Assembly: GCA_003647765.1 (NCBI GenBank)
Contig: QMNM01000012.1
Location: 1 to 13,183, forward strand
Reading direction: 5' to 3'
From: Candidatus Cloacimonadota bacterium
Lineage (GTDB): Bacteria > Cloacimonadota > Cloacimonadia > JGIOTU-2 > B8-G9
Length of the DNA stretch: 13,183 nt
Positions 1,311-13,183 of the stretch are shown one piece after another. The notes beneath the pieces were generated by a model that saw only the letters and a list, made by a program, of their open reading frames with translations, ran no database searches and had not been told where the DNA came from. The stretch's first letter is position 1; each line of letters begins with the position of its first letter. The position numbers and the translations under genes are program-made.

Positions 1311-2660
1311 ATGGATAATATTTTAATTATAGACGATGAGAAGAACATAATATCATTTCTAAAATATAACATAATTCAAGAGGGATATAATTGTTTCTCT
1401 GCTGAAGATTGCCAAGAAGCGGAGATTATCTTACGAAACAACCCAATAGATTTGATTTTACTTGATATTAACCTTCCAGATAAAGATGGCATCACATATC
1501 TGCACGATATAAAAGTCCGATACAGAGATTTGCCAGTTGTTATGCTTACTGCATCCAGAGATGTGGACAATGTAGTAAAGTCCATAAAGAATGGTGCTTA
1601 TGACTATATTACCAAACCAATTGATTTAGACCGAATGTTCTTAATCATAGAAAATGCTCTAAAATTGAAAAGGTTAGAGTCCAAAGTAAGTCAATTGGAA
1701 AGGGAGTTGAGTGAGATTAAACACTTGAATGGCATAGTTGGGACTAGTAAGCATTTACAGGATATAATAGAAAAGATAGAAATTGCATCTGCAACGGATG
1801 TCAATGTTGTTATTCAAGGCGAGAGTGGCACAGGAAAAGAATTAGTAGCTCATTCTATACATAATAATTCTGAACGAAGAAATAAACGAATGGTTGTTGT
1901 CAATTGTGGAGCAATTCCAGATACCCTATTTGAAAGTGAATTTTTTGGATATGAAAAAGGGGCATTTACATCATCTATATCCAGACATATCGGTTATTTT
2001 GAACAGGCAAATCAGGGGACTTTATTTTTAGATGAAATATCAGAAATTCCACTTCATTTACAAGTGAAACTTTTAAGAGCAATTCAAGAAAAAGAGATTA
2101 GAAGAATTGGCGGAACAAAAGATATTCCTATAGACATAAGGATAATTGCAGCTACAAGTAAAGACCTTAAAAAAGAAGTAGAGAAAAACAATTTCAGGGA
2201 AGACCTCTATTATAGATTATATGTATTCCCAATAATAGTGCCACCTTTAAGACAAAGAAAAGATGACATTCCATCATTAGTCGCATATTTCATCAATATG
2301 TTCAACAAGAAAAACAACAAGAATATCAGGGGAATACAAAAAGAAACGCTTGAAATATTAACTTCTTATCACTGGAAAGGGAATGTAAGAGAATTAGAAA
2401 ATGTTATTGAACGAGCAATGTTAGTTGAAAGAACTGATAAATTAACACCTCTCTCTCTACCTCAATATATATTAAGAGAAAAAGAAGAATATCTAAATGG
2501 TCAGTATGAAGAGAATATTCCTTTAGAAGGAATAGAGAAAATGCATATACGGAGAGTTCTTAAAAAATGTAATTATAATAAAAATAAAACGACCAAAATT
2601 CTTGGCATTAGTAGAGCGACTTTATATAGAAAAATAAAAGAATATAACTTAGAGAAATAA
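1311..2660 (+). CDS. NtrC-family sigma-54-dependent response regulator (REC-AAA+-Fis HTH)
   Basis: This 449-residue cytoplasmic activator remodels sigma-54 RNA polymerase by ATP hydrolysis once its receiver is phosphorylated. The receiver (1-120) has D8/D9, phosphoacceptor D52 in LLDINLP, T80 and K102. The AAA+ domain (about 140-375) has Walker A GESGTGKE (170-177), Walker B GTLFLDEISEI (236-246) and arginines in FREDLYYRL (295-303). A Fis-type helix-turn-helix follows at about 424-445 (KTTKILGISRATLYRKI). The length is normal for the family. One oddity is that the sigma-54-contacting loop reads GAFTSS (217-222) instead of GAFTGA. It is the first gene after a sigma-54-like promoter and lies 84 bases before a receiver-kinase gene that may be its partner. 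It probably controls the downstream surface and polysaccharide genes, and perhaps itself; the targets are inferred from context. Confidence 0.93.
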   Translation: MDNILIIDDEKNIISFLKYNIIQEGYNCFSAEDCQEAEIILRNNPIDLILLDINLPDKDGITYLHDIKVRYRDLPVVMLTASRDVDNVVKSIKNGAYDYITKPIDLDRMFLIIENALKLKRLESKVSQLERELSEIKHLNGIVGTSKHLQDIIEKIEIASATDVNVVIQGESGTGKELVAHSIHNNSERRNKRMVVVNCGAIPDTLFESEFFGYEKGAFTSSISRHIGYFEQANQGTLFLDEISEIPLHLQVKLLRAIQEKEIRRIGGTKDIPIDIRIIAATSKDLKKEVEKNNFREDLYYRLYVFPIIVPPLRQRKDDIPSLVAYFINMFNKKNNKNIRGIQKETLEILTSYHWKGNVRELENVIERAMLVERTDKLTPLSLPQYILREKEEYLNGQYEENIPLEGIEKMHIRRVLKKCNYNKNKTTKILGISRATLYRKIKEYNLEK

Positions 2661-2670
2661 GTAACTACAT

Positions 2671-2721
2671 AGCCACCAAGACACAAAGGGAGAATCGGTC
2701 AGACGCCAGACTGATGTGGCT
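2671..2721 (+). promoter_or_regulatory. Structured leader between regulator and kinase genes
   Basis: AGCCAC (2671-2676) can pair perfectly with GTGGCT (2716-2721), closing a loop that holds TCAG (2699-2702) and CTGA (2711-2714). The 18 bases at 2698-2715 are 14/18 identical to 1270-1287 ahead of the previous gene. The left part (CCACCAAGACACAAAGGG, 2673-2690) resembles a sequence I recall as dispersed between genes in many bacteria; this is from memory and unverified. The ribosome binding site AAAGGA (2733-2738) lies outside the structure, 6 bases before the ATG at 2745. Confidence 0.4.
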
Positions 2722-2744
2722 GAAATTACTTTAAAGGAATAATT

Positions 2745-3866
2745 ATGAATAGAAGAATTTTAGCAGTTGATGATGAGGACATTATCCGGTTGCTTTATAA
2801 AGAGATATTAGAGAATAAAATTATCCAGATGTATTTTCCAAGATTTGAATTAACAATTGCTTCTCAAGGGGAAGAAGCTGTTAAATTGGTGAAAGAAGCG
2901 TATGAAGACGAGAATCCCTTTGCTTTGGCTTATGTTGATGTCAGAATGCCACCAGGTATAGATGGATTAGAAACTGCATTTCAAATGCGTAAAATTGATA
3001 AGGATATTGAAATTGTACTTGTTACAGGATATAATGATTATAGTTCAAACGAGATTATTCAAAAAGTAGGCACACCACGAAAATTGACATTTCAAAAGAA
3101 ACCTTTTACTCCAACAGAACTGATACTTACTTCAGTTTCTCTTACAGAAAAGTGGAATTACGAAAGAATAAAAGATGATTTTGTGTCCATTGTGTCTCAC
3201 GAATTACGGTCACCATTGACCTCTATTATTGGCTTTCTTGATACTCTACTTAGAAACCCAAATATGAAATCGGATATGCGCCAAAGTTTTATTCAGACAA
3301 TAAGAAAAGAATGTATTAGATTAGAAGATATTATTGATAAAATTTTAAGATTTGAGGATTTAACAAAGGAACATCATAAATTAGAAGTTAGCAATATTGA
3401 TGTAGAAAACCTAATTCCTGAAATAGCAAATCAGATGCAACATCTCTTTGAGAATCGTAATATAAATTTTTATTATGAACTTTGTAATGTCAAACAGATT
3501 AAAGGAGAGGAGAATCTGCTTCGTGAAATGCTAATCAATTTAATTGAAAATAGTAGTAAATTCACTAAAGAGGGATATGTAAAACTATCATGTAAAAAAG
3601 AAGATGATAATATTGTTTTTGTAGTTGAAGACACTGGTTGTGGTATTAAAGAAGAGGAAAGAGAGATTATCTTTAAAAAATTCACAAAAGGAGAGCAATC
3701 TATACAAAATAAACGAGGATTAGGATTAGGGCTTTCTATAGTTGCTGATATTGTCAAAAAGCATAAGGGAAAGATAAGTTTTGAAAGCCAAGTCAATCAA
3801 GGAACTAAATTTATTATATCAATGCCTATTGATATTACAAAGAAGATTGATAACGATGAACAATAA
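2745..3866 (+). CDS. Soluble receiver-histidine kinase (REC-HisKA-HATPase)
   Basis: The protein has 373 residues and no signal peptide or membrane segment. The N-terminal receiver (1-125) has acidic residues D9/D10, phosphoacceptor D65 in YVDVRMPPG, T94 and K119. A HisKA dimerisation domain follows, with the phosphorylated histidine H152 in SHELRSP. The ATP-binding domain has the N box LINLIENSSKF (N269), the G1 box DTGCGI (296-301) and the G2 box GLGLGLSIV. All catalytic motifs look intact. With a receiver as its only recognisable input, the kinase is likely switched by phosphotransfer from another kinase rather than by sensing a ligand directly. The neighbouring NtrC-family protein is its obvious candidate output. 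The start has AAAGGA 6 bases upstream. The 3' end overlaps the next gene by 11 bases, implying coupled translation. Confidence 0.92.
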   Translation: MNRRILAVDDEDIIRLLYKEILENKIIQMYFPRFELTIASQGEEAVKLVKEAYEDENPFALAYVDVRMPPGIDGLETAFQMRKIDKDIEIVLVTGYNDYSSNEIIQKVGTPRKLTFQKKPFTPTELILTSVSLTEKWNYERIKDDFVSIVSHELRSPLTSIIGFLDTLLRNPNMKSDMRQSFIQTIRKECIRLEDIIDKILRFEDLTKEHHKLEVSNIDVENLIPEIANQMQHLFENRNINFYYELCNVKQIKGEENLLREMLINLIENSSKFTKEGYVKLSCKKEDDNIVFVVEDTGCGIKEEEREIIFKKFTKGEQSIQNKRGLGLGLSIVADIVKKHKGKISFESQVNQGTKFIISMPIDITKKIDNDEQ

Positions 3867-6800
3867 AACTATTGTTATTATTTTTATATTACTATCTGCT
3901 CACTTAATAGCACAACAGCGATTTAATTTGAGTAATTGGGATAGTAATATAAAAATCAAAGGTAAGAATCCATACGACTTTTTGGGAAAGAGTTGTGCAA
4001 TTGCAGATGTTAATGGTGATGGTATTATGGATATTATCATTTCTGCAAGTTCAGCTGACCCTTATGAGAGAAATTCCGCAGGAGAGGTATATATAATCTA
4101 CGGAAAAACTAACTTTTCCCAGAATGAGGAAATATCGCTGAACCAAAGCAATCCTGATGTAACAATTATAGGTGCTAAAAATGGTCATCAATTAGGATAT
4201 TCTATTGCTACTGGGAATTTTAATAATGACTTATATGAAGACATTGCTATTAGCGCCCCTTATGCAAATACAGATGAGTATAATGGATGTGGTCTAGTCT
4301 ATATTATATTTGGCAATTCTAATATTCCATCAGAGATTGATCTTCAAAGTGGTGGCTATGATTGTCTTATAAATGGCTGTCAGGATAATGAACATATTGG
4401 TATTTCTCTGGCTACTGGCGATATAAATGGTGATAGTTACTGTGAGCTTATTATTGGTTCTCCGTATTCGGATTATGATACAAAAGCAAATTGTGGAGCT
4501 GTATATATTATCTTCGGTAGTAATTCTATTCCCAATATTATTGAACTTGCTAATGATGAACAAGATATAAAATTTGTAGGTGCTAATATAAATGACGAAT
4601 TGGGAATGTCTGTTGCTATTGGAAAGGTGAATAATGATGATTATTTTGATATTTGTATTGGTTCGCCCGGCTCTGACCCAAATAATAGAGATAAAGCTGG
4701 AATTGTTTATCTATTTAAAGGCAGGAGTATATTTATTGATACATTGATTGATCTGGCTGAAAATCCTGATATGTTTTGCAAATTTTATGGTGCAAATCAA
4801 GATGGAGAAATAGGATATTCTGTGGATTTAGCAGATGTAAATGGAGATAATCTTGCTGATATTCTTTTGGGTGATAAAATAGATAATAACGGTTTTGGCT
4901 CAATATCTATCATTACTGGTAGAAATAATTTCCCTTTAATCTATGACCTATCAATCACATCTCCTGATGTGAAAATCATTGGCACACGAAATGATTCCTA
5001 TTTAGGTGAATATGTTTCTCATTGCAATTTTAATCAGGATAATTTTGCTGATGTAGTAATCGGAATCCCTTATGCAAACATAAAGAGTGGTAATGGAGCA
5101 GGTATTATTTATATTCTATTTGGCAATAGTCAAATCTCTGGCCAAGTGAGCTTAGATGATAGAACAAATTATGATCTTATTATATTGGGTGCAGGTTCTA
5201 ATGATAATATTGGGCAGACATTTGCAACTGGTGATATAAACAATGATGGAAAGAATGATATACTATTTGGCTCTGTAAATGGAGAAAATAATGGTATTGG
5301 GTATCTGATTTTTGGCGGTCTGCCATATATCCAAAATAGAGACCCTGATATTGATGAAACTGGTGTTCAAGTTAACCATTTAGTAGAGTTTGACTTGATA
5401 GATGATGACGAAGGAATAGACATCTTTTCTGTGTTAGTAGTTATTGCTGGCATTACTTATAATTGTAATGATACTCTTCATTTTTCTTACATAGGAACAT
5501 CCAATAATTACTCAATAAAAATCACTCCTGAACAAGCTTATGGTTATAATCAATTTATTGATGTAACTGTTGATTGTTCAGATTTGCATACTCCTGATGC
5601 CTATAATATGCCTAAAGAAATATATTCATTTAGAACAAAAGAAGATACAGACCCACCTTATGTTACTAATTTAGACCCAGAAGCAAATGAACTTGATGTG
5701 CCTGTTAATACAAACATTAGTTTTGATATATCAGATTTGGGGGATGGTGTAGATATAAATTCTGTGATAGTTAGCATTGAAAATGATACATTTTCTATTG
5801 ATGATAATAGTTTCCTCTATTCAGGCACTCCTGAAAAATATAGCATAACTATTGTGCCTGATGAATATTTTGCCTACGAACAGGTAGTTTATGTATCTAT
5901 TGATGCACAGGATTTATCGCCAACTCCTAATGTTATGCTAAGTTTTACTTACTCTTTTACTTGTGCAAGTGATACAGTCCCCCCTTATGTAAGCAGTTGT
6001 AATCCTGCTTATGGTGATACTATTGGCAGAAATTCACCAATAACTGTATTGCTTAAAGATGATGAGACAGGTGTAGATACGAGTTCCATAGCATTCAAAA
6101 TAGATGGTATTGACTTAACATATTATACTAATCTGATTCCTATCTCAATGGGATATAAAATCAGCTACTTGCCTTGTGACTCAAATTTTTACTATTCTTA
6201 CAATCAGCATTCAATTACAGTATTAGCAAGTGATTTGGCATCAATACCTAATTCCGTAGATACTACTTCTATATTTTACTGTGTACAAGATAAAGACCCG
6301 CCTTATACAGATAATCATTTCCCAGAAATGTACTGGTCTGATGCAGCAACAAATACAAAATTCTGCATTGAGATAAAAGACGACCTAATGGGAGTAGATA
6401 GTAATAGTATCTATATCAAGATAAATAATGATGAAATAATTGTTAGTGCCAATACTTTAATCAGCTCAATTGAAAATGGCTTTTTAATAACATATTATCC
6501 TGATGGCAGATGGACTTACAATCCTCCTGCTCCTATAAATGTAGTAATAAATGCACAAGATTTAGCAGATCCACCTAATATAATGCCAGAACAATCATAC
6601 TACTTTATTTGCACACTTGATACAGTAGAATGTTATATTACTAATCTCAATCCACCTGCTAACTTCACTGGTGTAAGCATAAGCACAAATGTCTATTTTG
6701 AAATAAAAGATCATAAAACAGGCGTCAATCCTAATTCTATTCAACTTATTGTTGATAGTGTGGATTGTTCAGAATACCTGGAAATAAATTCTGTATCAGA

Positions 6801-8514
6801 TGGATATTCTGTATTTTATGATTCACCAGAGGATTTTGATTTTGAACAGCAAGTTCATTTGCAAGTGATTGCAGAAGATAACGCTATTATTCCTAATGTG
6901 ATGGATATTTCTTATTCATTCTTTTGTCAAGGAGATACAATCCCACCTTACATTTTAAACCAAAATCCTGCACCAAACGAGCCAAGTGTGCCAAGAGATA
7001 CAGATATCTATTTAGAAGTAGCTGATGATGGCGTTGGTGTAGATACTACAACTATTGAACTATTCGTTAATAATCAACCAGTCAATTTCCAATTACAAGC
7101 TTTGCCAAATGGATATAGCTATGCAATTACTCATAACCCAGATACTTTATTTAGTTATAACCAAGTAGTAGAAGTTTCTGTTACTTGTCAGGATTTAGCT
7201 GCAAATGTTATGCCATTACAGATTTATTCTTTCCGCTGTGTTGATGATGACTACAACCCACCATTTCTGCAAAATCAGAATCCAGCACCTGAAAGTGAAA
7301 ATATACCTGTAAATACAACTATATACCTAGAAGTATTAGATGCTGATACTGGTGTTGATTCCAGCTCAATAAGATTAGAAGTCAATTATGTTGATATTAC
7401 CTTTTATACTAATACAGAAATAACAGCTATTTCATCTATCAATGGGACAGGATATTCTTTAGCATACAATCCAACAAATGATTTTAACTATAGTGATGTA
7501 GTGAACATTCATATTGAAGCAAAGGACAATTCAAGTAATCAAAATCAATTAAACATATCTTATTATTTTAGTTGTGTAAAAGACACAAATCCGCCTGTAC
7601 TATTAGAATATTGTCCTGGTGATTATGGCTATCCAAATTCTGTAATTAGTTTAACCTTTACAGATACTCTTTCAGGAATTGATTCCTCATCTTTCATTTT
7701 GAAAGTAAATGACGAATTCATATCTTCATATATAGACACACTTTTTGATAAAATATATCAGGCCAATTATGCAAATTCTGAATATTATGCTGAGGACACA
7801 ACTGTATCCATTTTTTATTCAATCAGTGACAACTGTGGAAACACATTAAGTGATAATTTATCATTTATAGTTATACAAGATACATTTCCGCCTTATTTAG
7901 CGAATATTTCACTGCCAGTTGGTTCTACTTATGCAAAGATTGGAGATACTTTATGGATAGATGTTTTGGACAAAGGTATGGGAATAAGAAAAGAAGATAT
8001 TGAATTTTACATAAATAGTATGGATATGAAGTATCAGACGCAATTATTCTCCAATCCATTTGGCTTTGACCCTGACTCTCTTGGTTATCGCATGAAGTTC
8101 ATCTTGGACGATAAATCCTTTTATCAGGGTGAGCAGATTATATGCAGAATCTTTGCCTGTGATGTTGCTGTGCCAAGCAATAAAATGGATTCTACATTCG
8201 TCTTTTTATTGGAAATCCCTCACGATAAAAAAGACAAAGTTGTTATTATACCCCCAATTATCACTCCTAATCACGACAATAAAAACGATGAGGCAATTAT
8301 TTATGTGCCTACTAATAAAAATGTTAAAGCAGCAATTTATAATAGATTTGGTGAAAAAGTGAAGGACCTATTTATGTCTCATAAGAATGATAAATATTGC
8401 TTTATCTGGGATGGAATGGATAATTCAAATAAATTACAAAGTAGCGGATTGTATATTTATCAAGTAAAAATTGGTAGCAAAACATATCAAGGGACAGTGG
8501 TATTAGCAAGATGA
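3856..8514 (+). CDS. Giant exported FG-GAP propeller / Ig-like repeat surface protein with CHU_C/FlgD-like C-terminal domain
   Basis: This 1552-residue protein probably acts outside the cell as an adhesin or matrix protein. The ATG at 3856 is preferred over a TTG at 3781 because it starts a signal peptide (MNNKTIVIIFILLSAHLIAQ) and overlaps the kinase stop by 11 bases. Residues about 30-490 hold seven FG-GAP repeats, each with a calcium-loop motif such as DVNGDGIMD or DINNDGKND (at 50, 120, 188, 256, 326, 390 and 459) and VYIIFG-like strands, enough for a closed seven-bladed integrin-type propeller. Residues about 490-1460 hold nine Ig-like modules of 99-111 residues, most opening with DTxPPY and containing a GVD-S core. 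Residues 1466-1552 (TPNHDNKNDE, NRFGEKVKDL, WDGMDNS, SGLYIYQVKIG) resemble CHU_C/FlgD-Ig tails, which in type IX secretion substrates direct export. The following gene overlaps by ATGA and encodes a PorV-like protein, a natural partner. The ligand is unknown. Confidence 0.88.
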   Translation: MNNKTIVIIFILLSAHLIAQQRFNLSNWDSNIKIKGKNPYDFLGKSCAIADVNGDGIMDIIISASSADPYERNSAGEVYIIYGKTNFSQNEEISLNQSNPDVTIIGAKNGHQLGYSIATGNFNNDLYEDIAISAPYANTDEYNGCGLVYIIFGNSNIPSEIDLQSGGYDCLINGCQDNEHIGISLATGDINGDSYCELIIGSPYSDYDTKANCGAVYIIFGSNSIPNIIELANDEQDIKFVGANINDELGMSVAIGKVNNDDYFDICIGSPGSDPNNRDKAGIVYLFKGRSIFIDTLIDLAENPDMFCKFYGANQDGEIGYSVDLADVNGDNLADILLGDKIDNNGFGSISIITGRNNFPLIYDLSITSPDVKIIGTRNDSYLGEYVSHCNFNQDNFADVVIGIPYANIKSGNGAGIIYILFGNSQISGQVSLDDRTNYDLIILGAGSNDNIGQTFATGDINNDGKNDILFGSVNGENNGIGYLIFGGLPYIQNRDPDIDETGVQVNHLVEFDLIDDDEGIDIFSVLVVIAGITYNCNDTLHFSYIGTSNNYSIKITPEQAYGYNQFIDVTVDCSDLHTPDAYNMPKEIYSFRTKEDTDPPYVTNLDPEANELDVPVNTNISFDISDLGDGVDINSVIVSIENDTFSIDDNSFLYSGTPEKYSITIVPDEYFAYEQVVYVSIDAQDLSPTPNVMLSFTYSFTCASDTVPPYVSSCNPAYGDTIGRNSPITVLLKDDETGVDTSSIAFKIDGIDLTYYTNLIPISMGYKISYLPCDSNFYYSYNQHSITVLASDLASIPNSVDTTSIFYCVQDKDPPYTDNHFPEMYWSDAATNTKFCIEIKDDLMGVDSNSIYIKINNDEIIVSANTLISSIENGFLITYYPDGRWTYNPPAPINVVINAQDLADPPNIMPEQSYYFICTLDTVECYITNLNPPANFTGVSISTNVYFEIKDHKTGVNPNSIQLIVDSVDCSEYLEINSVSDGYSVFYDSPEDFDFEQQVHLQVIAEDNAIIPNVMDISYSFFCQGDTIPPYILNQNPAPNEPSVPRDTDIYLEVADDGVGVDTTTIELFVNNQPVNFQLQALPNGYSYAITHNPDTLFSYNQVVEVSVTCQDLAANVMPLQIYSFRCVDDDYNPPFLQNQNPAPESENIPVNTTIYLEVLDADTGVDSSSIRLEVNYVDITFYTNTEITAISSINGTGYSLAYNPTNDFNYSDVVNIHIEAKDNSSNQNQLNISYYFSCVKDTNPPVLLEYCPGDYGYPNSVISLTFTDTLSGIDSSSFILKVNDEFISSYIDTLFDKIYQANYANSEYYAEDTTVSIFYSISDNCGNTLSDNLSFIVIQDTFPPYLANISLPVGSTYAKIGDTLWIDVLDKGMGIRKEDIEFYINSMDMKYQTQLFSNPFGFDPDSLGYRMKFILDDKSFYQGEQIICRIFACDVAVPSNKMDSTFVFLLEIPHDKKDKVVIIPPIITPNHDNKNDEAIIYVPTNKNVKAAIYNRFGEKVKDLFMSHKNDKYCFIWDGMDNSNKLQSSGLYIYQVKIGSKTYQGTVVLAR
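3985..5320 (+). repeat. Seven FG-GAP (integrin alpha-type) repeats
   Basis: The seven coding repeats have calcium-loop motifs whose first codons are at 4003, 4213, 4417, 4621, 4831, 5023 and 5230, a period of 64-70 codons. Repeats 1, 3, 5 and 7 have the closest match to DxNxDG; repeats 2, 4 and 6 carry N or Q in place of the Gly (NFNNDLYED, KVNNDDYFD, NFNQDNFAD). The count of seven matches one complete beta-propeller, so the domain appears whole rather than expanded or eroded. Confidence 0.85.
5323..8200 (+). repeat. Array of about nine Ig-like modules (period about 320 bp)
   Basis: Module boundaries, taken at the proline-rich junctions, start near 5323, 5653, 5980, 6298, 6628, 6943, 7258, 7591 and 7888. 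Junctions read DTDPPY, DTVPPY, DKDPPY, DTVECY, DTIPPY, NPPF, NPPV and FPPY. Each module carries a (T/M/V)GVD-type core followed by a strand ending in an acidic 'AxDL' or similar. Six consecutive modules end in F-x-C or similar just before the junction. The DNA of the modules has diverged, so recent tandem duplication is not evident. Confidence 0.8.
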
Positions 8515-9971
8515 AATTTACTTTTATGGAATTTATTTTTATTATGTTATTTCCTGTATTATTATTCTCTGCTTTTGAGGATAGACCTGGTGTAAGGTCT
8601 TGTGCAATGGGCAATGCTTATACTTCTATTGCTAATGATGCTTATGCAGCATATTGGAATCCAGCATTACTCAGTAGATTAAATTCCGTAGAAATCGCTA
8701 CTGATTTTCGTAAGTATTTATGGAACTTGGACAATGACGATTTAAGTTATACTTATATTGCTTTTGCTTATCCTTTTGGCAGATGGGGAACACTATCAGT
8801 AAATGGTGGAATGTTTAAAGCAAACATCTATTCAGAGAATCGGTTCGGTTTGCAATACGGATTTCACATAATACAAGATAAATTCGGTATAGGATTTAGT
8901 ATAGATAATCTATCCAAACGGTTTTCTCTAAATAAATATATTAATGATGACCCGTTATTTGATAATTATGGCACAAAAGTGAATAACTATGTTATTTCAT
9001 CTGGATTATATGCTAACATTTTCCGTAATTTTATGATAGGTCTTTCAATAAAAAATATAAATGAGCCAAACATAGCATTGAATAAGGAAGATAAGGATAT
9101 ATTGCCAATAAATACAAGTTTTGGGCTTTCTTATTATTGGAGATGGTTTCTCTTTGCTATGGATATAGAATGGCAAGATGAACTTCTTAATGATGAACGA
9201 ATTATCAGAATTCATAGCGGATTAGAGTGCAAACTCAATAACAAACTGAAACTGCAAACTGGTTATGATAGTAAATTCGTCAGCTTTGGTTTTACATTGA
9301 ATTTTCTCGGCAAGCAATGGATTAACAAAATCGTAGACCCAATTACTTCAAGAGAGATTGTTGATATTAAGTCAATAAATTGTATTCTTAATTACTGTGT
9401 AAGATACCCATTTTCTGGTATTTATTCCACTTATGGTGACCACTACATTGGGCTTCGCCTTCAATATAGTAATTCACGAGCAGAATCACAAGGAGTAACA
9501 AAATATGCTCCTTCAAGAATAAAAACTGAAACTCGTTATGAAACAAAGGTTAGAATTGATACTATGTTTATTGAAAAAGTGAGATTAGACACACTTGTAA
9601 AAGAGACAATTATAAAAGATACAATAATTATTGAAAAACCTGTTCCAGATTCAACTCTATTAGCAATGGCAGCTGAGTTAGAAGCACAAAAAGTAAGATT
9701 AGCAGAACAGAAAAAGATAAATGAGGCATTAAAACATCTTTTGAACTCACTAAAATTGTATTACGCAAATGAGTTTGAGAGTGCAGAGAAGGAGTGCAGA
9801 ACAGCTATTAATTTAGCACCTAATTTGGTATTAGGATATTTAAGATTAGGTTCTATATTGTATCGTCAAGGAAAAGTTGATGAAGCAATGAAATATTGGA
9901 AAAAGGCATATAAAATGGATCCAAATAATGAGGAACTAAAAAAGATATTTGAGAGCGGTGTAAAACAATAA
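8511..9971 (+). CDS. PorV/UPF0164-like outer-membrane beta-barrel protein with C-terminal TPR tail
   Basis: The protein has 486 residues, starting at an ATG that overlaps the previous stop as ATGA. Residues 1-22 look like a signal peptide (MEFIFIMLFPVLLFSA core). The mature start, RPGVRSCAMGNAYTSIANDAYAAYWNPALL, matches in outline the opening of PorV/UPF0164 barrels (G-A-R-x-L-G-M-G-x-A-x-x-A, then YWNPA). Residues to about 320 alternate in the manner of beta strands rich in aromatic residues. A linker (347-376) holds three 10-residue repeats with D-T at positions 4-5. A basic/acidic helix and two TPR-like helical pairs (about 400-486: SLKLYYANEFESAEKECRTAINLAP and the unit after it) form a probable periplasmic tail. 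In type IX secretion PorV shuttles substrates to the surface attachment complex; here it may receive the preceding giant protein. That role is inferred, and the TPR tail is not part of classical PorV. Confidence 0.75.
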   Translation: MKFTFMEFIFIMLFPVLLFSAFEDRPGVRSCAMGNAYTSIANDAYAAYWNPALLSRLNSVEIATDFRKYLWNLDNDDLSYTYIAFAYPFGRWGTLSVNGGMFKANIYSENRFGLQYGFHIIQDKFGIGFSIDNLSKRFSLNKYINDDPLFDNYGTKVNNYVISSGLYANIFRNFMIGLSIKNINEPNIALNKEDKDILPINTSFGLSYYWRWFLFAMDIEWQDELLNDERIIRIHSGLECKLNNKLKLQTGYDSKFVSFGFTLNFLGKQWINKIVDPITSREIVDIKSINCILNYCVRYPFSGIYSTYGDHYIGLRLQYSNSRAESQGVTKYAPSRIKTETRYETKVRIDTMFIEKVRLDTLVKETIIKDTIIIEKPVPDSTLLAMAAELEAQKVRLAEQKKINEALKHLLNSLKLYYANEFESAEKECRTAINLAPNLVLGYLRLGSILYRQGKVDEAMKYWKKAYKMDPNNEELKKIFESGVKQ

Positions 9972-9982
9972 GTAGCTTCGCA

Positions 9983-10010
9983 CTTACATTAAAAAGTTAT
10001 ATGTAGGAGG
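9983..10010 (+). promoter_or_regulatory. Strong Shine-Dalgarno with a hairpin over its upstream edge
   Basis: AGGAGG (10005-10010) stands 4 bases before the ATG at 10015. It is the best ribosome binding site in the window. CTTACAT (9983-9989) can pair with ATGTAGG (10001-10007, one G-U), which would hide the first part of the AGGAGG. The 43-base gap has no promoter that I recognise, so the downstream genes are probably read through from above. Confidence 0.45.
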
Positions 10011-10014
10011 AAAA

Positions 10015-10857
10015 ATGGATTGTTTAGAGTATTGGAAATTAGAAGAGGCACCTTTTGAGGAAAATGCTGACCCTAAATTTTTTTATGAGAGCATAGACCA
10101 TAAAGAAGCATTGGAACGGCTACGATATATAATTGAATCACATAATATGAATATAGGATTACTCACAGGGGAAATTGGTGCTGGAAAGACAATTACAAGA
10201 AATGTTCTTCGTGAAGAATTATTACAAAATGAAGAACATAATCTTGTAGTTTGTCTTGATACTTCTAATTATAGAGATATTGATATTATAAAGGAAATTT
10301 TATATCAATTAACAGGGTCTAATCCTGAGAATCTGCCAAATAACAAATATGTATTGATAACAAGATTGAAGCGATTTTTAGCAACAGAGGTCGTTATATC
10401 AGCAAAAAGAGTGTTTGTATTTCTTGATGAAGCTCAAAAAATTGGACCGCACTATCTGGACTCTATAAAGGACTTAACTAATATATCTTACAATTATGAA
10501 TCTCCTATTACTCTCATATTTATTGGTCAGCCAGATTTATTAACGAAAATTAAGAAACTGCCACAAGTTGACCAGCGAATAAGTATGCGTTATCATCTGA
10601 ATCGGATGACAAGAACTGATACAGAAAATTACATCAAACATAGATTAAAAAGAGCCGGACTTGAAGAAGATATATTTTCTGAAGATGCTTTTTACTTAAT
10701 TTATTCTAAAACTGATGGCATACCTCGTGAGATAAATCGTGCCTGTAAAATCGCACTTGACTATGGATTTTCAGAGGAACTGAATATAATAACCAAACAA
10801 GTAATGTCCATTATCTTTGATGACTTAAATAGATATGAAAGAAGGGATCTTGGGTAA
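10015..10857 (+). CDS. ExeA/GspA-like AAA ATPase of the exopolysaccharide-locus type
   Basis: This 280-residue ATPase opens with the characteristic ExeA-type segment (YWKLEEAPFEENADPKFFY, with the bulky residues of 'F-G-L-x-x-x-P-F-x-x-x-P-D-P-x-F-x-y'). It has Walker A GEIGAGKT (52-59), Walker B VFVFLDEAQ (133-141), sensor-like FIGQPDL (169-175) and arginines in QRISMRYHL (187-195). It lacks the transmembrane segment and peptidoglycan-binding C-terminus of full-length ExeA. Short ATPases of this form are typical of PEP-CTERM/exosortase exopolysaccharide loci, where they sit near chain-length proteins, as here. No exosortase is visible in the window. Its cellular task in such loci is not well established; energising export or assembly at the envelope is a family-based guess. 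A related MuB/TniB-type transposition ATPase is less likely, because there is no transposase nearby. Confidence 0.85.
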   Translation: MDCLEYWKLEEAPFEENADPKFFYESIDHKEALERLRYIIESHNMNIGLLTGEIGAGKTITRNVLREELLQNEEHNLVVCLDTSNYRDIDIIKEILYQLTGSNPENLPNNKYVLITRLKRFLATEVVISAKRVFVFLDEAQKIGPHYLDSIKDLTNISYNYESPITLIFIGQPDLLTKIKKLPQVDQRISMRYHLNRMTRTDTENYIKHRLKRAGLEEDIFSEDAFYLIYSKTDGIPREINRACKIALDYGFSEELNIITKQVMSIIFDDLNRYERRDLG

Positions 10858-11797
10858 AACTGGTATTATAGAAATTATATTACTCTTACTTTTATTGCCA
10901 AGATTAGTTTTTGCATATACTTTTGCTTGGCTGAGTGATGTGCATATTGAAATTGGAAAGGAGAGAATTGTTGACCAAGAGATGCGATTTTCGTTAAGCA
11001 CTACTATATTAGAAAATGCTGTTAGAGATATAAATGAAAATAAAGATATAGATTTTGTAATTATAACAGGTGATATTCTAAACAATGGTCGTTCATGGAA
11101 TTTAGATGCAAGTAAATTTATACTTGATAAATTGAATAAGCCATATTTTGTAGTTATAGGCAATAATGATTTTGCTATGCCAATATCTGGTATTGGGATT
11201 AGTAAGACGACTTTTCATACTGCTTTTGCTGATAACGAACCAAATTTTAAGGGAGGAATCTGGTCTTATTCACCTGTTAAAGATCTGCTTCTAATCGGAA
11301 TTGATAATATTAATCCAATTAGTGGCGGTGAAGCATGGACAGAAAATCTTATGAAAAATCTTGAAAAGCATCTAAAAAGTAATAACAGAAAGGATGTTAT
11401 TATACTTGTTCATTATCCAATAGTGGAATTAAATTATCAAAAGAATGGAAAATTGTTATACTCTGCAATGGAGTTTATGGACTTATGCAAGAGATACAAA
11501 GTTAGTTTTATTTGCAGTGGGCATTATCATTATAAAGAATTCCAGAAAATAGACAGTATCTTTAATTTCATCTGCCCAGCTTTAATTGAGTTCCCACATC
11601 AGTATCTGACAGTATTAGTTTCTTCAAAAGAGGTTAATATCTCTTCTCACAATGTATTAGACATTATAACAATTGAAGAATCAAGGAATAAATTAGCAGG
11701 GAAAATTAGAAAATTACTTTACTCTTATCCTGATATTAGTGAACAACAAATATTAGATAAGATGATTGGTAAGAAAGTGTATAATTATGCAAGATAA
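10835..11797 (+). CDS. Calcineurin-like metallophosphoesterase, probably exported or membrane-anchored
   Basis: The 320-residue protein starts at ATG 10835 inside the ATPase gene (23-base overlap). The N-terminus (IIEIILLLLLLPRLVFA, residues 11-27) is a signal peptide or anchor, which places the enzyme outside the cytoplasm. Metal-binding motifs appear in order: SDVH (D35, H37), GD (D80), GNND (109-112), VHYP (H193) and GHYH (H230, H232). This is the full dimetal set, except that the GNH(D/E) histidine, the usual acid residue, is Asn111. The enzyme may therefore be slow or use another proton donor, as some family members do. It sits between an exopolysaccharide-type ATPase and a Wzz protein; a role in removing phosphate from a polysaccharide, lipid carrier or surface group is possible but speculative. 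An internal TTG at 10850 is the alternative start, but its spacing to AAGGG is too short. Confidence 0.85.
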   Translation: MKEGILGKTGIIEIILLLLLLPRLVFAYTFAWLSDVHIEIGKERIVDQEMRFSLSTTILENAVRDINENKDIDFVIITGDILNNGRSWNLDASKFILDKLNKPYFVVIGNNDFAMPISGIGISKTTFHTAFADNEPNFKGGIWSYSPVKDLLLIGIDNINPISGGEAWTENLMKNLEKHLKSNNRKDVIILVHYPIVELNYQKNGKLLYSAMEFMDLCKRYKVSFICSGHYHYKEFQKIDSIFNFICPALIEFPHQYLTVLVSSKEVNISSHNVLDIITIEESRNKLAGKIRKLLYSYPDISEQQILDKMIGKKVYNYAR

Positions 11798-13183
11798 GAC
11801 AGATACATCCAGATTATCCCTGACTAAAATGCGTCAGAAAAAGGAAGAGATAAATAATTATTCATCTTCCTCTGGCAAGACATATACTTCTTCAAGAGTG
11901 GGGAAAGGTATATTTAACTTCTTCCAAAAGAGCAAAGGTTCATTAGATAAGAAGTTAGATGAACTAATAAGAAAGAAAAATATAGAAGAATCTACAGAGA
12001 TAAATATTAAAGAATATCTGGAAATCGCTTACCATTATAAGTTTTTGATATTACTTATTTTATTAACAGTGGTTCTGGCTATTTTTGCATATACAAAGAG
12101 GCAAAGGGATATTTATAAAGCAAGTACAAAGATTTTTATTCAGCAAGACCTAATGGAATTGCAGATAATAAATAATAAACCTATGTTCAAGCAAGACCTT
12201 GACATTAAAACATGGCTACAGATTATTAAGTCATCAGAGATAGCCAAAAGAGCTTCCAAGATACTTGAAGGAAGAGTATCTCCCTCCCAAATTTCAGCAA
12301 TGATTGAGTGTAAAACAGAAAGAGATGAGGAGCATATAGTAAATATTATTGCTACCTCTACTAATCGTGTAGAAACAGCTGAGGTTGCAAATGCTATGTA
12401 TCTTGCGTTAAAGGAGTATGATACAGAAGTTCGTTCAACTGGTTTTAATAACTCCCTTGATTACATTAAGTCCCAACTAAAAACCAAACAGGATGAATTA
12501 GATAAATTAGACGAACAAATAGAGAATTTCTACCATGCTCATAACATAAATAAATATACTGATGATGTGGAGATTAATTTACAAAATGTTAATAAATTTC
12601 GGGAGATGCTGAGCACTGCTGAAGTTGAATTGTCTGCTGTAAAAGCTAATATTAATAGCATTAAGGAAAAGTTGAAAAGTGAAGAGACCGATATAGTAGC
12701 ACAAACGACTTATAGCGAGCCACTAAAAATACGATTAATGAACTTGGAAGTTGACTTAGCAAGAGCTCTAACAAAGTATACGGAAAAACACCCTAAGGTA
12801 CAGGCAATTAAAAATAATATTGAGAATGTTAAAAGATTAATTCAAGAAGGTGCAGAAAAAAATATCCAGTTAAAAAATCTTTCTGCCAACCCTATAAGGC
12901 AACAACTTGTTAATGATCTTATTGAAAGAGAGGGAGAATCTATTTCATTAGAACAGAAAATCAATGCCTTAAAAAAACTCATAAGTAGCTATGACATCTT
13001 ACCAGAATATAGAACAGAGTTGAATAAATTACAAAGACAAAAGAATGCTCTTGAAAATGTGTTAGTCAATTTGCAGAGTCAGTTAAATGAGATAAAATTG
13101 AATGCCAATATAAAAGTAAGTAGAATTTATCAGCTTCAAGAGCCAGTTGTGCCATCATCACCAGCAAATAGTGGTAAGATGAA
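11787..13183 (+). CDS. Wzz/GumC-type polysaccharide chain-length determinant (3' truncated by window)
   Basis: The frame is open from ATG 11787 to the window end: 465 complete codons, overlapping the previous stop by 11 bases. Residues 1-80 are a hydrophilic Ser/Lys-rich cytoplasmic extension. Residues 86-103 (FLILLILLTVVLAIFAYT) are a membrane helix, followed by YKASTKIFI, the usual Wzz start of the periplasmic domain. Residues about 225-440 are mostly helical and coiled-coil-like (LDYIKSQLKTKQDELDKLDEQ; ALTKYTEKHPKVQAIKNNI), with the T-x-x-HPKV signature of the GumC/BY-kinase-adaptor family. The end, LQEPVVPSSPANSG, resembles the proline-rich segment that comes just before the second membrane helix, so only that helix and any C-terminal kinase or tail are missing. 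The protein sets the length of an exported polysaccharide at the inner membrane. The N-terminal extension is longer than in typical family members. Confidence 0.9.
   Translation, partial: MQDKTDTSRLSLTKMRQKKEEINNYSSSSGKTYTSSRVGKGIFNFFQKSKGSLDKKLDELIRKKNIEESTEINIKEYLEIAYHYKFLILLILLTVVLAIFAYTKRQRDIYKASTKIFIQQDLMELQIINNKPMFKQDLDIKTWLQIIKSSEIAKRASKILEGRVSPSQISAMIECKTERDEEHIVNIIATSTNRVETAEVANAMYLALKEYDTEVRSTGFNNSLDYIKSQLKTKQDELDKLDEQIENFYHAHNINKYTDDVEINLQNVNKFREMLSTAEVELSAVKANINSIKEKLKSEETDIVAQTTYSEPLKIRLMNLEVDLARALTKYTEKHPKVQAIKNNIENVKRLIQEGAEKNIQLKNLSANPIRQQLVNDLIEREGESISLEQKINALKKLISSYDILPEYRTELNKLQRQKNALENVLVNLQSQLNEIKLNANIKVSRIYQLQEPVVPSSPANSGKM

Follow-up and report, generated by a model that had tools for sequence, protein, structure and literature searches.

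What does a giant adhesin work with when it is encoded directly in front of an outer-membrane barrel in a bacterium of an uncultured phylum? The question is raised by a stretch of 13,183 nucleotides (hereafter, the window), the complete contig G000:C12 of a Candidatus Cloacimonadota metagenome-assembled genome (1.97 Mb, 360 contigs, 88.8% complete). The original prediction took its genes for a composite system that places a large adhesin and a polysaccharide on the surface together. Because the ends of the window are the ends of the contig, the locus is cut in half. We propose, with a probability of about 0.6, that the locus, of which the window holds the first half, encodes an envelope-spanning motor acting on a surface adhesin, either by moving it or by exerting force on it, and that this motor is combined here with polysaccharide export.

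We looked at which genes accompany the adhesin and the barrel across the phylum, where a rotor-like gene was found in 23 of the 124 genomes, all of them drafts assembled from metagenomes. A 24th match, in genome G122, was left out because it covers the FliG part alone and is an ordinary FliG. In 18 genomes, the gene for a PorV-family barrel with a TPR tail (PorV/TPR) is followed directly by the rotor gene and then, where the contig is long enough, by those for MotA and MotB, and a large Ig/cadherin/PKD-type protein is encoded upstream of PorV/TPR in every examined contig that reaches far enough. Adhesin, PorV, rotor, MotA, and MotB are also co-located, in another order, in G084, G091, and G094, and overall the adhesin and/or PorV gene is adjacent to the rotor gene in 21 of the 23 rotor genomes. 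Since rotor, MotA, and MotB come directly after the adhesin/PorV pair in 18 other genomes, we take the motor to be the conserved partner of the pair, and a plain adhesin and capsule locus was for this reason rejected as the principal explanation. A wide scan with one short peptide pattern returned 12 Cloacimonadota loci with the operon-type rotor, the other 10 matches being confined to the FliG region and coming from Proteobacteria; a restriction to Cloacimonadota is thus valid for that pattern alone.

Genome G103 is the sole rotor genome seen without an adhesin/PorV pair nearby, and second rotor copies without an adhesin occur in G058, G101, and probably G037. These paralogous cassettes, free of adhesin and PorV genes (L157, G058:C74; L156, G103:C7; L158, G101:C232; L097, G037:C104), consist of rotor, MotA, MotB, and a 376-aa protein where complete, and in three of the four genomes they stand directly after pyrG. 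Elsewhere, a 1,065-aa secreted protein with beta-propeller-like repeats is encoded downstream of MotB on the opposite strand (L096:5638-8835, minus).

The rotor protein is about 440 to 525 aa long, with a signal-like N terminus, a periplasmic domain, one transmembrane helix, and the middle and C-terminal domains of FliG. Its C-terminal half matched the Pfam FliG_M/C profiles (FliG_C, 6e-20), Aquifex aeolicus FliG in the PDB (2e-30), and FliG in Foldseek (E value = 6e-9), and besides FliG, Foldseek returned FliF MS-ring/RBM3 structures (probability 1.00). In the AlphaFold model, the periplasmic part runs helix, strand, long loop, strand, helix, strand, and then the membrane helix, which is the order of FliF RBM3. 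When aligned with hhalign to the true FliF of flagellated Cloacimonadota, the N-terminal profile reached 91% probability (E value = 1.2e-6, a single comparison) and the C-terminal half 0.3%. From these profile, PDB, and fold matches, the rotor is best read as FliF and FliG fused in minimal form, lacking RBM1/2 as well as the FliG N domain. In the tree, a long branch (ultrafast bootstrap [UFBoot] = 100) separates the rotors cleanly from every true FliG sampled, flagellated Cloacimonadota included. Among the rotors, that of the window's genome (G000) was sister to that of G084 (UFBoot = 91; FastTree, 0.94).

The accompanying MotA is of the flagellar type (PDB MotA/PomA, 1e-48), and MotB carries an OmpA domain and, in 20 of the 21 sequences, the transmembrane ion-binding Asp; the two make up a MotA/MotB stator with a plug and a peptidoglycan-binding domain. 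In the MotB-like protein of G005 (L067:9579-10001), LysM replaces OmpA, a swap of the peptidoglycan-binding module.

In the window's own genome, the rotor and stator genes lie on another contig, C27 (10.5 kb), and we infer that C27 continues C12. The Wzz gene is still open at the 3' end of the window. A search of the genome for this Wzz/BY-kinase family gave four places: a complete fusion on C36, a separate Wzz on C71, and halves on C12 and C27. Only the latter two are broken: C12 carries the N-terminal half at its 3' edge, and C27 carries the C-terminal half at its 5' edge. On C27, the genes run as follows.

C27:1-480, end of the BY-kinase
C27:480-1589, LCP/SLBB protein (LCP transferase)
C27:1593-2249, Wza-like protein
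C27:2557-3987, rotor-like protein (FliF/FliG fusion)
C27:3988-4734, MotA
C27:4731-5405, MotB

The contigs share no end-to-end overlap of 8 bases or more. Measured against the intact 904-aa Wzz/BY-kinase of G084, the part on C12 reaches residue 535 and the part on C27 sets in at residue 746, which gives an estimated gap of about 210 residues (~630 bp). Their tetranucleotide compositions agree (r = 0.88, compared with 0.28 to 0.62 for loci of other genomes). In G094, contig C433 carries ATPase, phosphoesterase, Wzz/BY-kinase (860 aa), LCP, and Wza genes, in the order that the junction would give here, and C429 carries rotor, MotA, MotB, a propeller adhesin (1,543 aa), and PorV. In G084, a member of another family, a single 40-kb contig has PorV and the adhesin (1,554 aa) on one strand and, divergent from them, rotor, MotA, MotB, ATPase, Wzz/BY-kinase, LCP, and Wza. 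The phosphoesterase is second in the G094 cassette and absent from that of G084. The sole broken halves, the contiguous cassettes of G084 and G094, and the matching composition together support the link between C12 and C27, and the comparison suggests that the adhesin/PorV, motor, and cassette modules stay together though their order differs.

Within the window, we annotated the following features, all on the forward strand.

1008 to 1036, forward: hairpin like an intrinsic terminator, 3' of the PFOR gene, which it separates from the locus; upstream limit of the locus
1228 to 1243, forward: sigma-54-like -24/-12 site TGGTATAATTATTGCT with 2 mismatches, a consensus match only, 67 nt 5' of the NtrC-type gene
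1311 to 2660, forward: NtrC-type response regulator with receiver, sigma-54 AAA+ (Sigma54_activat), and Fis HTH domains (open reading frame [ORF], Pfam/NCBIfam)
2745 to 3866, forward: receiver-HisKA-HATPase protein, receiver N-terminal, no sensor domain matched (Pfam Response_reg, HisKA, HATPase)
3856 to 8514, forward: surface adhesin, 1,552 aa (FG-GAP, Big_5, CHU_C)
8511 to 9971, forward: PorV/PorP-family outer-membrane barrel with periplasmic linker and TPR, proposed carrier or anchor of the adhesin (PorV family and TPR profiles)
10015 to 10857, forward: AAA_22 (ExeA-like) ATPase, first in the polysaccharide export cassette (AAA_22/TIGR03015-like)
10835 to 11797, forward: exported calcineurin-like phosphoesterase (Metallophos)
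11787 to 13183, forward: N-terminal part of a Wzz/BY-kinase fusion, broken by the contig end (Wzz/TIGR03007-like)

With the signal-peptide ATG taken as the start of the adhesin and an ATG as that of Wzz, the ORFs gave exactly the spacings of the original prediction for these seven genes: a gap of 84 bp after the NtrC-type gene, overlaps of 11 bp between the receiver-HisKA-HATPase and adhesin genes and of 4 bp between the adhesin and PorV/TPR genes, a gap of 43 bp before the ATPase gene, and overlaps of 23 bp between the ATPase and phosphoesterase genes and of 11 bp between the phosphoesterase and Wzz genes. The seven domain assignments it had made were likewise each backed by Pfam/NCBIfam. About 0.3% of shuffles of the same 250 nt reached the score of the sigma-54-like site, and a scan for such sites 5' of the homologous motor operons gave no consistent signal, so control by sigma-54 would be at best local. 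The number of sigma-70 promoter sites in the window was not above that in shuffles.

The adhesin consists of a signal peptide, an integrin-alpha-like FG-GAP propeller (~3856-5325; PDB integrin alpha-V, E value = 5e-12), about nine Ig-like repeats, and a C-terminal CHU_C/type-B sorting domain of the type IX secretion system (T9SS) (~8245-8496). This tail scored above the Pfam cut-off for CHU_C (2.9e-9) and slightly below that for TIGR04131 (32.3 bits; cut-off, 35). Adhesins with the propeller were seen in G000, G084, G091, and G094; those of the five-gene operons are mostly without it. The large proteins upstream of PorV in G028 (L108:2-8404) and G111 (L171:1-8688) have at least 2,800 to 2,900 aa, far above the window adhesin, and in G028 the frame exceeds 5,800 aa.

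The type-B adhesin adjoins a carrier of the PorP/PorV family, which also scored above the Pfam cut-off for PorP_SprF. Its linker keeps VRIDTLVKE..DT, and the linker and TPR tail (TPR, ~9747-9938) are conserved among the operon PorVs. The best PDB match of its AlphaFold model (predicted local distance difference test [pLDDT] = 67.5) was a chain of the T9SS RemA-CTD complex 8gl6, probably PorV to judge from chain length and context, followed by FadL-type barrels. Cys429 of the window PorV (~9795-9797, in the TPR) was invariant in 13 of 13 aligned PorV/TPR proteins. We saw no invariant Cys in the periplasmic domain of the rotor, so a disulfide partner like that of SprF and GldK is not evident.

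We then compared the locus with known systems. It shares with the flagellar motor the MotA and MotB families, the FliG middle and C-terminal domains, and a FliF-like ring domain with a transmembrane helix, but it differs in that the FliF-like and FliG-like parts form one chain of ~470 aa, in that its genes adjoin those of the adhesin and PorV, and in that FlhA, the gate of flagellar type III export, was not found in the genome (88.8% complete), nor in the 7 other rotor genomes of that search. FlhA was found in 7 other relatives, all 7 with a FliG-only match. In the Agl-Glt system of Myxococcus, ion-driven stator homologues are likewise coupled to outer-membrane barrel, TPR, and adhesin proteins; its AglRQS is TolQR/ExbBD-like, and we know of no FliG partner for it. 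T9SS-dependent gliding of Bacteroidota (SprB-SprF, GldJKN/GldLM, SprA) resembles the locus in its type-B adhesin beside a PorP/PorV-family carrier with a periplasmic tail, in SprA, and in its ion-driven stator, whereas GldLM there stands in place of the flagellar-type MotAB and FliF/FliG-like rotor here, and SprF has a Cys-X-Cys tail instead of TPR. In that system, SprF is the anchor of SprB (PMC9143113) and connects it to a moving track (PMC12635249). By analogy, the closest working model for the locus would be adhesin-based gliding.

We observed the gene content, domain make-up, and synteny of the locus, and from these we infer a function in motility. The adhesin would leave through the outer membrane by the T9SS translocon SprA and would stay bound to the PorV/SprF-like barrel, as SprB is held by SprF. 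MotAB, whose OmpA (or LysM) domain would fix it to peptidoglycan, would let ions flow and so turn a ring of FliG-like domains, and the fused FliF-like ring could bring the torque into the periplasm and engage the linker/TPR tail of the carrier. Displacement of the adhesin might then produce gliding-like movement or drag the cell over a surface. The Wzz-BY-kinase/Wza/LCP cassette, which is added in two or three lineages, would supply a surface, slime, or capsule polysaccharide used with the motor, and the two-component regulators may control the whole set. The broader proposal, that non-flagellated Cloacimonadota glide by a further class of motor in which a FliF-FliG fusion and MotAB pull a T9SS-exported, partly integrin-like adhesin via a PorV/TPR carrier, with polysaccharide export co-encoded in some lineages, is more tentative, and we put it a little short of even odds.

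Several points weigh against a motor that drives the adhesin. Confidence in the AlphaFold models is moderate (pLDDT, 67 to 68), and the torque residues of FliG are kept only in part in the rotors. The MotB-like protein of G087 (L154, reverse strand, G087:C438, 193 aa) has Asn for Asp (FANLM versus YADLM), so its stator may be inactive or altered. The junction of C12 and C27 is a reconstruction across ~0.6 kb of unassembled DNA, and both movement and the contact between rotor and carrier are proposals. Copies of rotor and MotAB lacking an adhesin exist in a few genomes. SprA is encoded in the window's genome (G000:C80, a 2,026-aa frame, above the cut-off) and was found in 54 of 58 genomes. Because genomes that lack the motor have it too, secretion does not depend on the motor.

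The T9SS link of the adhesin made in the original prediction is plausible given SprA in the same genome. A rival explanation is that the rotor and MotAB power the export of the adhesin, as a substitute for GldLM, and not its movement on the surface. PorV-type carriers do act in T9SS export, and GldM was found in none of the 58 genomes, a result that carries no weight because no positive control responded. We nevertheless consider this unlikely, for SprA is present in nearly all relatives, most of them without the rotor operon, and export therefore works without the rotor.

We judged it somewhat less probable still that the locus is a surface sensor or anchor, in which the stator and rotor receive the load on the adhesin and respond by signalling or by holding position, without locomotion. 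Such a role would suit the two-component genes that precede the locus here, the other two-component genes that precede the rotor in G091, and the MscS-type channel gene that follows MotB in several genomes (L069:7691-8590; homologues in L101, L105, L106, L107, and L172). Neither MscS nor the regulators are general, however, and a full FliF/FliG ring protein together with the two stator subunits is a large apparatus for nothing more than sensing.

The view that the locus serves adhesin and polysaccharide, with the motor genes unrelated on another contig, draws on the gene order of the window and on the linkage of the cassette in G084. Polysaccharide genes very probably do follow downstream, since the likely continuation C27 holds the BY-kinase end, LCP, and Wza, and in G084 the adhesin/PorV pair, ATPase, and Wzz share one contig, which upholds the composite locus and its synteny in that genome. 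In 18 genomes, however, the pair is joined by the motor instead of polysaccharide genes, and the five-gene version of the operon has no polysaccharide gene. Motor genes accompany the pair in 21 genomes, polysaccharide genes in at most 2. Of the 123 other genomes of the phylum, G084 and G094 alone have a close orthologue of the window ATPase (49 to 50% identity), and G090 has one distant match. All three genomes with the close form, out of 124, have the rotor, for which the chance is ~0.006 if the two were independent. We thus regard this view as improbable; the original prediction, in which the motor does not figure, is right in part.

The cassette had also been likened to PEP-CTERM exopolysaccharide loci. 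Its ATPase, Wzz, BY-kinase, and Wza do resemble TIGR03015, TIGR03007, TIGR03018, and TIGR03027, but all scores lie far under the curated cut-offs (ATPase, 151 to 163 bits against 324.5 for TIGR03015; chain-length protein, 66 to 125 bits against 278.9 for TIGR03007). No exosortase was found in the window's genome or 57 relatives, in a search in which an archaeal control responded, and the readable part of the locus showed no glycosyltransferase, Wzx, or Wzy. Membership in the PEP-CTERM/XrtA group was rejected on the missing exosortase and the ATPase and Wzz scores.

Finally, a functionless relic of a lost flagellum, to which the FliF/FliG/MotAB homology and the true flagella of some relatives could point, was rejected as very improbable, since FlhA was not found in the rotor genomes searched, the rotors group separately from every true FliG in the tree (UFBoot = 100), the frames are intact, and gene order is kept over many genera.

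FliG is taken as the mark of a flagellum, and the gliding machines known to us contain stator homologues but no FliG rotor. We count the system as new because it departs from what defines a flagellum and because the rotor is found in no known gliding machine. We found no FliG-based gliding or adhesin system in the open-licence PubMed Central (PMC) literature, a scope outside which preprints and subscription papers fall; in a 2025 survey of MotAB, FliG appears a single time, as its partner in the flagellum, and a 2026 review of gliding does not mention it (PMC13104615).

If the proposal is true, a flagellar motor works in these bacteria without a flagellum. It would offer a compact, five-gene system for the transfer of torque across the periplasm and for the origin of gliding motors, and it would bear on whether rotor-stator pairs predate flagella or descend from them. 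For a phylum still uncultured, it would also suggest a lifestyle on surfaces that can be tested.

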